NCBI GenBank assembly: GCA_903872035.1
Contig: CAIQIZ010000009.1
Location: 71,299-107,865 of the forward strand
Direction: 5' to 3'
Source: an uncultured bacterium
Lineage (GTDB): Bacteria > Patescibacteriota > Minisyncoccia > Phycocordibacterales > PALSA-1337
Length of the DNA stretch: 36,567 nt
Notes under the pieces: model-generated
The model's input: only the letters and a program-made list of their open reading frames with translations
Databases searched by the model: none
What the model was told of the DNA's origin: nothing
Position numbers and translations under genes: made by a program
Shown: positions 1,772-8,953 of the stretch, one piece after another
Numbering within the stretch: position 1 is the stretch's first letter
Layout of the letters: the number at the start of each line of letters is the position of its first letter

Positions 1772-3187
1772 CTACAACGTTTCCACCAAGATGAAATTCG
1801 TCTCGCTGGAACTGCCGAATGGCATGCCGGCCACGATCACCACCTTGTCCCCCGTTTTTACCAATTCATTTCCAATCATAACTTTGCGGACAATATTGAG
1901 GATTTCGTCAACCGTCTTGAATGTCGGAACGACCATAGGATAACAGCCGAATGAGAGCATGAGCTTGTGGGCATTATCTTCTGCATCAGAAAGGGCCAAG
2001 ATGCGCTCGGCCGGACGATATCGAGCAAGCATGCGGGCAGTCCGTCCGGAACGAGTCAAGGCCACGATCATGGATGCGCCGACGTTATGAGCGGCACGCA
2101 CAGCTGATTGCGAGACGACATCGGTGACACCGTGAGACCTGTCATATTCGGCGATAGTATCACGTGTGTAGACTTCGCTTTCCACGCGTAGAGCGATGCG
2201 AGTCATGATCTTGACCGCTTCGACTGGAAAATCTCCCAAGGTCGTCTCTTCGGAGAGCATGATGGCATCCGTACCATCGATGATGGCGTTGGCGATATCA
2301 GATACTTCCGCCCGAGTCGGCACAGGATTCTTGATCATCGATTCCAACATCTGCGTGGCAGTGATGACCGGCTTCCCCACAGAATTACATTTGTGAATAA
2401 GAAGTTTTTGCACTATCGGCACATCTTCAGCCGGTATCTCAATTGCCAAGTCTCCGCGAGCCACCATTAGTCCATCAGCTTTCTCCAAGATGCCGTCAAT
2501 ATCATCCAAAGCTTCCGGTGTTTCGATCTTGGCTATGATCTGCGCCTTACATCCTCGCTTGTCCAGAATCTCGCGGAGTTCCACGATGTCGGAGGCATGT
2601 CTGACGAACGATAAGGCCATAAAATCAACCTTATTCTTTATACCAAATTCCAAATCTTCCCTATCCTTATCTGTCAGAGATTTAACAGACAAATTGGCAC
2701 CGGGCACATTGACGCCTTTGTGGCTGGACAAGCGGCCCCCGACGATGACTTTGGTGATGATGTCGTTACCTCTGACCTCGATGACTTCCAATTTCTTTGT
2801 CCCGTCTTGGATCATTATCGGGCTACCGGCTTTGACCTCTTTTGGCAATTCCTTGTAAGTCACGCTGACTCTATCGGCTGTACCTTCGATCTCATCCGCA
2901 GTTAAAGTGAATATCTGTCCGGGCGTCAGCAATATCGTCTTCTCCTTGAATGTGCCGATGCGGATCTTTGGACCGCTCAAATCCTGCATGATAGCCACGA
3001 TCTTGCCAGACTTTTTCATGATCTTCCGAATGGAATCCACCCTTGCTTGATGTTCTTCAAAACTGCCGTGAGAGAAGTTCAGGCGCATTATGTTCATGCC
3101 AACATCGACGAGTTCCGCGAGCTTTTCTTCGCTTTCAGTCGAAGGACCGATGGTGCAAACGATCTTTGTCTTTTTTCCGAGATTCAT
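1772..3187 (-). CDS. pyk: pyruvate kinase
   Basis: KTKIVCTIGPSTES, MNIMRLNFSHG, MVARGDLAIEIP, ITATQMLESMIKNPVPTRAEVSDIANAIIDGTDAIMLSEET. Confidence 0.98.
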   Translation of the reverse strand: MNLGKKTKIVCTIGPSTESEEKLAELVDVGMNIMRLNFSHGSFEEHQARVDSIRKIMKKSGKIVAIMQDLSGPKIRIGTFKEKTILLTPGQIFTLTADEIEGTADRVSVTYKELPKEVKAGSPIMIQDGTKKLEVIEVRGNDIITKVIVGGRLSSHKGVNVPGANLSVKSLTDKDREDLEFGIKNKVDFMALSFVRHASDIVELREILDKRGCKAQIIAKIETPEALDDIDGILEKADGLMVARGDLAIEIPAEDVPIVQKLLIHKCNSVGKPVITATQMLESMIKNPVPTRAEVSDIANAIIDGTDAIMLSEETTLGDFPVEAVKIMTRIALRVESEVYTRDTIAEYDRSHGVTDVVSQSAVRAAHNVGASMIVALTRSGRTARMLARYRPAERILALSDAEDNAHKLMLSFGCYPMVVPTFKTVDEILNIVRKVMIGNELVKTGDKVVIVAGMPFGSSSETNFILVETL

Positions 3188-3371
3188 GATTTGGACGGCA
3201 AAATGAGGTATTCAAAATGCCTGATTAACGATTAATATTATTGATGATTATATCATCTTGGCGCCTTTTTTGAAATTCATTGTTCTTTGAACATTTATTT
3301 ATTCTTTTTTGAGGCTTTTTTCATCATTTCTTCATAACTATTATGTACAATATGTTGAATGATCATTTTTT

Positions 3372-3570
3372 CCTGTGGGCCTGCCAAGTAGTTTGGAACC
3401 CCTCTCGCCAGATAGGGTTTGCGGGTGCAACTCCCGTCAGGTCCACAGGGTTAAGTGATCATTTGGACCTTGACTTTATGATTTAAATTTCATAAACTTC
3501 ATTCACTGGCGAGAAGGAAATTCCATCTACGAAGGTAAACCCTGCAAAAGTCCGCTTCGGCGGATTTTTG
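3372..3570 (+). ncRNA. candidate structured ncRNA: 12-bp closing stem, three-armed cloverleaf-like core, pseudoknot, 3' hairpins, terminator
   Basis: Pairs seen: CCTGTGGGCCTG 3372-3383/CAGGTCCACAGG 3438-3449 (one GU); CCAA 3384-3387/TTGG 3393-3396; AACCC 3397-3401/GGGTT 3415-3419; GCGGG 3421-3425/CCCGT 3433-3437 with loop TGCAACT; loop TCTCGCCAG 3403-3411 with CTGGCGAGA 3506-3514 (9-bp pseudoknot); TTTATGA 3475-3481/TCATAAA 3490-3496; terminator TCCGC-TTCG-GCGGA-TTTTT. No plausible ORF on the plus strand. Confidence 0.8.
3550..3570 (+). terminator. Rho-independent terminator of the ncRNA
   Basis: GTCCGCTTCGGCGGATTTTTG: UUCG tetraloop, 5-6 bp stem and T-run. Confidence 0.85.
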
Positions 3571-3590
3571 CTTTCTATGACCATTGGGAA

Positions 3591-4556
3591 TCAAATTCCC
3601 TTCGCCGGAATAGGTCTTTGAACTGGAGGAAAATCGACAGGACTTATTGTACGGTTGAAACATACCTCACCAGATCCATGGCTCCAATTGTAGAACGCAT
3701 TATTATACGTAGGTGTCACATAAGGCGAATTTAGATTCTCTTGTGTAGAAGTCGCAGAAAAAGTCGCACAGATGATAAACGAGTTTGTTTGTGAACCAGA
3801 TTCATAACTATACGGGGCATGTGTTTCCGGATCTTTCGGAACGCTTCCCATGAATTCTGGCATTTTTGCAAGCGATTCGGGGACGCTTCCTAACTCTTGC
3901 CAATAATGTGCCACTGAACCTTGGATGTTTGAAAGATCATTAATTCTCAATTGATCAAACCTTATCGCCCTTTGCGTAGCCGGCGAACCTACAAATACAA
4001 ATCCAGCGACTATCGCGGCCACCGTCAAAATAATTCCAACCCACGCCAATAGAATCAAAAACTTCCTAGACCGTCCAGAATCGCTCATTCTTTCAAGAAT
4101 ATAGTAGGAAAATATTACCGCCGAAATGACTAGAACGATGAGAATCTTATAAATGAACCTGGCGCTTATTTCACCGTTCAAGTAAGTGTTGATGAGAGCT
4201 ATCAAATCACCTGCAATAGTGGCGCCGGTCAAAAACAAAGTTAAATATATCCGCCAACGTCGTATCCAAACTTCCCTCTTTTCTGGAATTTTGACGATGT
4301 CTCGACGGATCACCCATTCAAGTACATATAAAATTGGAATCAATACTATGAGCGTCGAGATCGGCCAAACAACAGAACTAACGCTAAAGTACCCAGCCAA
4401 AGCGTCTGGCAAGGCATAGTTGACCGTGCTGAAGGCTAAGTTGATAAGCGCTATAGCCGAAGCGTAGAGCGCGGTAGTAGCGCCCAAATGAAGGAAAAAA
4501 TCCTTCGGAGTGGTTTTGGTTGTGTTCATTTCGCAATTGTACCCCTTTTCCGGCAC
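3591..4556 (-). CDS. DUF5671-like multi-TM protein with soluble C-terminal domain
   Basis: TPKDFFLHLGATTALYASAIALINLAF...WVIRRD followed by several hydrophobic segments; C-terminus DLSNIQGSVAHYWQELGSVPESL. Confidence 0.6.
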   Translation of the reverse strand: MPEKGYNCEMNTTKTTPKDFFLHLGATTALYASAIALINLAFSTVNYALPDALAGYFSVSSVVWPISTLIVLIPILYVLEWVIRRDIVKIPEKREVWIRRWRIYLTLFLTGATIAGDLIALINTYLNGEISARFIYKILIVLVISAVIFSYYILERMSDSGRSRKFLILLAWVGIILTVAAIVAGFVFVGSPATQRAIRFDQLRINDLSNIQGSVAHYWQELGSVPESLAKMPEFMGSVPKDPETHAPYSYESGSQTNSFIICATFSATSTQENLNSPYVTPTYNNAFYNWSHGSGEVCFNRTISPVDFPPVQRPIPAKGI

Positions 4557-7105: not shown

Positions 7106-8953
7106 TTATATATTTACATTCCAGACACTATCAAACGAATACCCTGCCAAATCAATAGCACGCTGTGTAATCAATTTCCTGTCCCACTTTTGATTTTCAT
7201 ATTTCATAATGATCAATTCTTTATTGCCAATATTGATCATATGTTTAGGATCAGCTTTGATTAAATTAAATTTTTCTGCAGGCGTTCCGTGCTGAAATGA
7301 ACTATTAGCATGAAGCGGGATAACTAGAAGGTTTCCAATATTGTTGCCGGCATCAGTTCCAACCAAATCCTCACTCTCCTCAAACAATTTTCTTGGATAG
7401 AAATGCTCGATGTTTGAGGACTTAGTTTTGACTTCTTTATCCGGATTATATAGTTCATATATTTGGTCACCTTTTGATTCAGCATTTGAAATACGGTCAA
7501 ATATATATACGATTAACCTCTTTTCTTCGTCGTCATAATTTATGTCAGTAAATTTAGAGAGGAATGATTTTCGTGTCTCCCTCAAAGTCATCAGTTCCTT
7601 CTTTAGATCGATTTCAATTTCATTAAGTTTATTCAGATCTTCAGCATTGTAAAATTTTTGTGCATATTCCGAATAGAGCGATTCTACTTGATTACCAATA
7701 TTTTTTCCTATCACTGTGTTAACAAAATGGAAGTTTTCTAAACGTTGGAGAAAAACAAGTAAGTATTCACAAATTGTTCTTCGTCCCCTTGACGATTTAT
7801 TTGCTTCCTCAATTTCATTCTTTGCCCTAGATAAACATCTGATATAAGAATAGACTAGTGGGTATATTTGAGTAATCTTAAACAACTGAAAAGCTGTAAT
7901 AGATCTTGTTAATGCTTTTTTCCTCGGAGCATCAGATAAAATTTCCCCCAGGTCAACCTCTCTAAAATAATGGCTCATTACAGACATTTCGGATGCTATA
8001 GATCCTTCTTCCGACATCATTTTATAGAACAATGAAAAATCACTTAACTCGTTAATTAACATCCTTGATGTTTTATCCTTAACCTTTCCGCTCAAAGTCG
8101 GGAAGATTTCCTTTTTAAGAGTTTTACCATTGAATGTTATGACATAATACTTTAACATCTGGCTAAGCTTATCCGATGAGTTGGTAGTTATCTGCTCCCA
8201 TTTTTTATCGATATCGTCATGTAAAGATTCATCCGCTCTTTGAAATAAAAGATTTTTTACAAGATCCGATTGTGCAAGTTTCATACCACGGGCATTCGTC
8301 CTCTCAAAAATATCAAAGGCTTCGACAGGATCATCAATTTCAATCTTGGTTACAAATATTTTTTCCAATGATCCTAATATGTCCGCCAATTCCTGAGAAT
8401 TCAAATTTTTTACCTTATTGTAAAAGAAACTGTAAACGGGTTCAATCTTGCCTTTTATTTTCCGATAGGTTCTGCCATCAATTTTCATCTTCTCTGGAAT
8501 GTTGCCGTCCCAATTGTAATCCGACATAAGGTCGAAGAGAAGCCTGATCGGTTTGGCCACTGTAACTTTTTTTAAACCAGTTCTATCCTGTTTCGCAAAT
8601 CTGTTAGTTACATATTCAATTAAATTATTTACATCCGATATTTGTAGTGCGTTTTCCGTCAATTGTTTTGCTCTTGTTCTTATAGCAATAAGCAAAAACT
8701 GTAAAGTTGTTATTCGTTGTTGACCGTCAATTATTGACAGGACTTTTTTATCAGGGTCATCGTTAAGAAAAATAAAATTCCCAAAAAATAAGCTGTCTTT
8801 CGCTTTCTGATTCACAGACTCCAAATCAGACCAAAAATTTTCTATCTGTTCCATCCCCCAATCATATCCTCTTTGAAATCTTGGAACTTGGTATCTATTA
8901 TTTTGTGAGAATATTTCTATAAGATTCTCATTTTTGGGATTGAATGTCTTCAT
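7106..8953 (-). CDS. DUF262 + DUF1524 (HNH) protein, GmrSD-like type IV restriction
   Basis: YQVPRFQRGYDWGMEQIENFWSDL, IIDGQQRITTLQFLLIAI, C-terminal KSSNIEHFYPRKLF...NNIGNLLVIPLHANSS. Confidence 0.85.
   Translation of the reverse strand: MKTFNPKNENLIEIFSQNNRYQVPRFQRGYDWGMEQIENFWSDLESVNQKAKDSLFFGNFIFLNDDPDKKVLSIIDGQQRITTLQFLLIAIRTRAKQLTENALQISDVNNLIEYVTNRFAKQDRTGLKKVTVAKPIRLLFDLMSDYNWDGNIPEKMKIDGRTYRKIKGKIEPVYSFFYNKVKNLNSQELADILGSLEKIFVTKIEIDDPVEAFDIFERTNARGMKLAQSDLVKNLLFQRADESLHDDIDKKWEQITTNSSDKLSQMLKYYVITFNGKTLKKEIFPTLSGKVKDKTSRMLINELSDFSLFYKMMSEEGSIASEMSVMSHYFREVDLGEILSDAPRKKALTRSITAFQLFKITQIYPLVYSYIRCLSRAKNEIEEANKSSRGRRTICEYLLVFLQRLENFHFVNTVIGKNIGNQVESLYSEYAQKFYNAEDLNKLNEIEIDLKKELMTLRETRKSFLSKFTDINYDDEEKRLIVYIFDRISNAESKGDQIYELYNPDKEVKTKSSNIEHFYPRKLFEESEDLVGTDAGNNIGNLLVIPLHANSSFQHGTPAEKFNLIKADPKHMINIGNKELIIMKYENQKWDRKLITQRAIDLAGYSFDSVWNVNI

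Follow-up and report, generated by a model that had tools for sequence, protein, structure and literature searches.

The stretch analysed here (the window) comprises 36,567 nucleotides (nt) of contig CAIQIZ010000009.1 from an uncultured bacterium of the Patescibacteriota. The locus of interest is intergenic and lies on the plus strand between two minus-strand genes, pyk (1772–3187) and a DUF5671 gene (3591–4556), as had been noticed in an earlier inspection of the letters alone (the sequence-only reading), which took it for one tRNA-like noncoding RNA locked by a pseudoknot. From the features listed below it is probably made up of two adjoining genes, one for a look-alike of tRNA-Ala (RNA A) and one for a small antisense RNA (RNA B).

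3298–3335, plus strand: four 11-nt direct repeats (TTTAT, TTGAG, TTCAT, TTCAT) overlapping the −35 region of RNA A
3346–3351, plus strand: predicted −10 element of RNA A, TACAAT by sequence, with TATAAT or TACAAT at the same place in several homologs
3357–3376, plus strand: 5′ leader, base-paired to the 3′ trailer so that the acceptor stem is lengthened outward, with many two-sided changes in outer helix 1
3377–3445, plus strand: tRNA-like body of RNA A, G1 to A73, with CCA not encoded in the window
3377–3383, plus strand: 5′ strand of the acceptor stem, pairing with 3438–3444, G3 (3379) opposite U70 (3442)
3384–3396, plus strand: D-like hairpin whose loop AG (3390–3391) probably contacts the T loop, judging from D-loop/T-loop covariation
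3397–3419, plus strand: anticodon-like arm, loop core C-U-C-G-C-C-A (3404–3410), a YUNR U-turn loop
3421–3437, plus strand: T arm of 5 bp with the 7-nt loop TGCAACT, canonical in all catalogued members
3438–3445, plus strand: 3′ strand of the acceptor stem with discriminator A73, from sequence and conservation across members
3470–3498, plus strand: sigma-70-type promoter of RNA B (TTGACT, 17 nt, TAAACT)
about 3505–3575, plus strand: RNA B, predicted antisense RNA of ~70 nt, a 5′ tail followed by a terminator, from promoter, complement and cofold analyses
3506–3514, plus strand: 5′ tail of RNA B, CTGGCGAGA, complementary to the RNA A loop at 3403–3411
3545–3571, plus strand: intrinsic terminator of RNA B by sequence, a UUCG hairpin followed by a U run

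In tRNA numbering RNA A opens with a 7-bp acceptor stem. Next come a short D hairpin and an anticodon-like arm, with usually a single nucleotide between the latter and a T arm of 5 bp and 7 nt. The 12-bp closing stem described previously is present (CCTGTGGGCCTG at 3372–3383 against CAGGTCCACAGG at 3438–3449, one G-U pair included) and encloses the three hairpins seen inside it (3384–3396, 3397–3419 and 3421–3437), although it extends farther outward than described and its inner 7 bp are the tRNA acceptor stem. The view that the region is too organised for spacer was borne out by a folding z-score of −6.6, none of 200 shuffles being equally stable. Homologs were found in the same genus and family by a DNA search of 100 relatives. 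With 10 homologs aligned, 22 of the 41 pairs of the tRNA-like structure show two-sided changes (12.5 in column shuffles) and the covariation score is 0.42, against 0.19 when shuffled and at most 0.14 when slid. Covariation, which the sequence-only reading had named as a check, is thus seen in all helices of the tRNA-like structure, and the loop complementarity covaries likewise between cognate partners (below).

The search for relatives was made within Patescibacteria, where 85 (the members) were catalogued from several classes, with varying gene arrangements. Discriminator A73 is present in 85/85 and the G3-U70 wobble in 84/85, a frequency that is partly made by the search itself (such sequences had gone into building the model, and the parser gave a small bonus for GGG), while acceptor pairs 4–7 vary freely. 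G3-U70 plus A73 is the known identity of tRNA-Ala. Covariation at the elbow points the same way as the fold: a T-loop TT goes with a D-loop GG in 73 members and TG with AG in 10, none being discordant and two unclear. The loop core of the anticodon-like arm is C-U-Y-R-H-C-A (C32, U33, A38), with U in 92–96% of members, R in 100% and the last A in 100%, this A having served as alignment anchor and being also invariant in A2. The anticodon loops of tRNAs also take the U-turn form. RNA A is therefore most likely, by its sequence features, a compact mimic of tRNA-Ala. It shares with tRNA-Ala the G3-U70 pair, A73, the T arm, the elbow contact and the CCA end, but differs in having no linker before the D arm, a D loop of only 3–5 nt and a longer anticodon-like arm whose letters follow RNA B. 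Two loci, L314 and L355, combine a complete D arm of the tRNA-Ala type with the long loop, and these intermediates suggest descent of RNA A from tRNA-Ala.

The general tRNA likeness (canonical T arm, acceptor stem, D/T elbow contact) goes mostly unrecognised by standard tools; the sequence-only reading, too, had found the element unlike ordinary tRNA and tmRNA. ARAGORN reported 0 tRNA genes and no tmRNA in the window, and among 60 loci scanned it called a tRNA at the member in L072, L073, L096, L309 and L323 only. No Rfam family matched at gathering score anywhere in the window; for tRNA (RF00005) the window lies below that score and a single member, L326, passes (35.6 bits), and the tmRNA covariance model (RF00023) gave no match in the window. 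The best weak resemblance was to the Tymovirus tRNA-like element (RF00233; 20.9 bits against a gathering score of 40), driven by the T arm. No Y RNA family (bacterial Y RNA, YrlA) appeared among the Rfam listing for the region. A resemblance to raiA-type RNAs had been suggested, and the raiA motif/ModT RNA, reported from Bacillota and Actinomycetota (PMC11706538), is indeed of similar length (~200 nt) with pseudoknots and a terminator, but its covariance model found nothing in 3200–3700 up to E = 10 and the suggestion falls.

The sequence-only reading had also pointed out that 9 nt of the middle hairpin loop have a complement downstream, and TCTCGCCAG (3403–3411) is exactly complementary to CTGGCGAGA (3506–3514). 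This relation is specific to each locus. The longest complement of the RNA A anticodon arm averages 11.5 nt in a member's own flanks and 7.4 nt in the flanks of other members, and complements of at least 10 nt occur in 51/85 own flanks against 21/680 swapped ones. The catalogued members share ancestry and are not independent; in a set thinned at about 70% identity to 49 dissimilar members, 30 still have at least 10 nt. Genuine tRNA-Ala controls nearly all give 7–8 nt, L304 being higher because a second tRNA adjoins it. Predicted interaction energies (cofold) are −16.3 kcal/mol for cognate and −2.5 kcal/mol for non-cognate pairs, and the own partner was ranked best of 16 in 54/61 cases; within the source genome A1/B1 (−15.3) and A2/B2 (−23.5) stand against A2/B1 (−1.7) and A1/B2 (−8.4 kcal/mol). 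The YUNR U-turn of the target loop is a form that speeds antisense pairing, as shown for hok/Sok (PMC6562991).

RNA B has the signals of a gene of its own. In the window the promoter TTGACT-N17-TAAACT is followed by 7 nt and then by CTGGCGAGA, and among the 65 members with a complement of at least 9 nt, 78% have a promoter score of at least 9/12 compared with 3% of dinucleotide shuffles. The −10 box in these members mostly ends 5–8 nt ahead of the complement, which is therefore predicted to be the extreme 5′ end of RNA B. Downstream, the UUCG terminator recognised earlier is present at 3545–3571, and by a crude rule 44 of the 65 RNA Bs are followed by a terminator. As the promoter sits between the two complementary strands, RNA A and RNA B are probably made as separate transcripts. 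RNA B may be downstream of RNA A in tandem, convergent or divergent; in the class around G345 it is commonly convergent on the opposite strand, and five loci (L319, L321, L332, L348 and L358) have it on the opposite strand upstream of RNA A. Such layouts are incompatible with a fixed intramolecular pseudoknot, and together with the promoter they make the 9-bp complementarity most likely a pairing between two RNAs. In L314 RNA B is upstream on the same strand. A small open reading frame within RNA B (ATG behind a Shine-Dalgarno-like stretch in some members) was considered and rejected, being neither conserved nor present in the window.

The window's RNA B represents a first subtype, without a CCA-binding site. 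In a second subtype of ~15 members, including the source genome's paralog (G000:C3:15214–15288), RNA B carries TGGT and then a complement of the acceptor 3′ strand, so that its match spans CCA as well as the acceptor strand, including in members that do not encode CCA. This paralog (L076) is the source genome's second A/B pair and has a distinct loop of its own. Variable acceptor positions are paired in 44/60 cases in this subtype against 25 ± 3.2 when permuted, none of 20000 permutations being as high, and the misparsing of L079 lowers the observed value. A similar complement of acceptor and CCA occurs in the distant pair L302/L308. Over all 85 members the CCA complement shows little excess, and capture of the CCA end is therefore claimed for the second subtype only. 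There, a small hairpin at the 5′ end of RNA B is followed immediately by UGG, and the CCA end of RNA A would thus abut the 5′ end of RNA B, with which cofold agrees. Two loci show other combinations: at L106 (G017:C47) an A/B pair of the first subtype precedes an RNA B of the second subtype that has a promoter-like sequence of its own, and L108 (G045:C7:8593–8615) is an orphan second-subtype RNA B, upstream of which GTGGGCACGCATTGG resembles the first bases of a deleted or truncated RNA A.

The repeats ahead of RNA A are also a property of the family. In the 70 nt upstream of RNA A, autocorrelation peaks at lags 11 (z 14.9) and 22 (z 14.4) in 38 members of the window's family, and the lag-11 peak is found in 47 other members (z 9.0). 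The repeats are a probable activator site of the OmpR/PhoB type. A survey of one genome, the source genome (G000), gave 14 matches to the triple repeat against 2 for the reversed pattern, and among the genes directly downstream are those for the pilus proteins T2SSE and T2SSF, for a pilin-like protein that carries an N-methylation motif, for a PemK-like toxin and for an LCAT-like protein; a regulon that includes type IV pilus genes is thus possible. The individual loci L372, L373, L377, L380 and L381 have the repeats upstream of pilin-like, PemK-like, T2SSE/T2SSF, possibly ComEC/MBL-like, and LCAT-like genes.

Our preferred reading, to which we give a probability of about 0.7, is that RNA B is a Sok-like antisense RNA dedicated to restraining RNA A, itself a mimic of tRNA-Ala. 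The basis of this reading is anatomy read from sequence: the fold of RNA A, the cognate pairing, the promoter and start of RNA B, the CCA-acceptor complement of the second subtype and the 11-nt repeats. RNase P would probably cut RNA A at G1, the 3′ end would be trimmed and CCA-tailed, and the product would be alanylated by virtue of G3-U70 and A73. RNA B, transcribed from its own promoter, would seize the U-turn anticodon-like loop with its 5′ tail and invade the anticodon stem, in the second subtype capturing the CCA end and acceptor strand as well, and would thereby disarm or destroy RNA A. RNA A would become active once its 11-nt-repeat promoter, apparently common to type IV pilus genes, lifts it above RNA B. 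That free RNA A would then disturb translation, A and B behaving as an RNA toxin–antitoxin pair, is a tentative proposal that we hold at somewhat below even odds. More tentative again is the full picture, a system spread widely through the Patescibacteria: an alanylated tRNA mimic would serve as RNA toxin or growth switch and be induced together with type IV pilus genes, and a dedicated antisense RNA would neutralise the mimic by unfolding it, taking hold of its single-stranded extremities, namely the anticodon loop and, for one subtype, also the CCA end.

Several observations weigh against the preferred reading, besides the search-made share of the G3-U70 count and the shared ancestry of the members noted above. 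The D arm adjoins the acceptor stem directly, the usual linker being missing, and entry of RNA A into the ribosome is therefore uncertain. Some second-subtype members have only a weak loop complement (7–8 nt), and the first 12 nt of RNA B are only ~64% unpaired in its own predicted fold. There is also no terminator between RNA A and RNA B in the window, so a read-through transcript would permit pairing in cis.

The alternative that survives best accepts the same A/B anatomy and differs in the role of RNA A, which would be a regulated special-purpose alanyl-tRNA (for miscoding, frameshifting by an 8-nt loop or non-ribosomal transfer of alanine) with no toxin role, its dose being set by RNA B. 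The loop core C32 U33 Y R H C A38 resembles an anticodon loop, ARAGORN reads L323 with a 4-base anticodon, and promoter repeats common with pilus genes would suit such a function; however, the loop letters differ between paralogs and track RNA B, so that no fixed codon is implied, and the patchy presence of the pair fits a dispensable element. We regard this alternative as possible, if short of probable. That the locus makes one folded noncoding RNA with an internal pseudoknot now appears improbable. Of the original description the structured, tRNA-like core stands, and the 9-bp complement, the strong folding in the window and the missing A–B terminator all speak for a single molecule, but a conserved promoter is placed to start RNA B at the complement, and many relatives have RNA B upstream of RNA A or encoded on the other strand. 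A T-box-like sensor, in which RNA B would read the charging state of RNA A, seems more improbable still: second-subtype RNA B resembles a T-box in having two contacts, one with the CCA end and one, farther 3′, with the anticodon-like loop, but it would act on its own partner rather than as a gene leader and its invasion of the acceptor strand is longer. No particular gene consistently follows the terminator of RNA B (in place of an aminoacyl-tRNA or amino-acid gene there are differing neighbours, which frequently lie on the opposite strand), and the window's RNA B has no CCA contact. We give little credence to the idea that second-subtype RNA B is a primer-binding site at which RNA A primes reverse transcription; TGGTGGA plus the acceptor complement does resemble a retroviral primer-binding site and the genome has two reverse transcriptase genes (G000:C21:43702–44313 and G000:C13:8772–9374), but neither shares a contig with the genome's A/B loci and the window's RNA B lacks the site. 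A divergent or two-piece tmRNA, for which the alanine identity, canonical T arm and tRNA-like ends could be cited, is the least credible, as a canonical tmRNA is already present in the genome (contig C12, 84.1 bits against a cut-off of 47) and RNA A has no mRNA-like domain, nor could a conserved tag reading frame be seen by eye in RNA A or B.

Sok, the antisense partner in the type I toxin–antitoxin pair hok/Sok, is a short RNA that has a recognition tail and a terminator. The preferred reading would give RNA B the same build and RNA A a YUNR U-turn in the target loop as in hok/Sok (PMC6562991), with cognate-specific, covarying complementarity and, by sequence, a promoter and terminator of its own. 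The differences are that the target is a tRNA-like RNA rather than an mRNA for a small toxic peptide, no peptide toxin being present, and that RNA B is encoded beside RNA A in several orientations, with no overlap. Toxin–antitoxin pairs made of RNA only are called type VIII, and both partners here would likewise be RNAs; to our knowledge the known type VIII examples do not use a tRNA mimic. The A/B pair is described neither in Rfam nor in the open-access papers searched. Patescibacteria make up a large share of bacterial diversity and few of their regulatory RNAs are known; a module in which a tRNA mimic has an antisense RNA to itself would bring tRNA identity together with antisense control, and from it sharp, testable predictions on charging, pairing specificity and toxicity follow. 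If RNA A does enter translation, it would be a natural case of anticodon-independent alanylation turned to regulatory use.

With model R2, whose false positives are true tRNA-Ala(UGC), members were found in 23/53 genomes of the family (0–3 per genome) and also in several other classes of the phylum, where CCA is encoded in many of them. There is no conserved neighbour gene among members, the neighbours being pyk, dnaK, recA/efp, gyrA, dnaG and others (named by eye from sequence, pyk excepted). A viral origin was considered and rejected: viral contigs gave 80 pattern matches, which appear to be due to chance, and model R2 matched none of them. L102 (G022:C29:10377–10477) is a broken remnant of RNA A, its relatives L087 and L103 being intact beside the same gene families. 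L175 (CALMYA010000062.1, uncultured bacterium) scores 61.9 bits as a member, and downstream of it a large palindromic hairpin contains the loop in sense and antisense. The window's pyk and its counterpart in a Candidatus Taylorbacteria genome share 89% identity, and a gene for a GmrSD-type restriction endonuclease lies at 7106–8953 on the minus strand.
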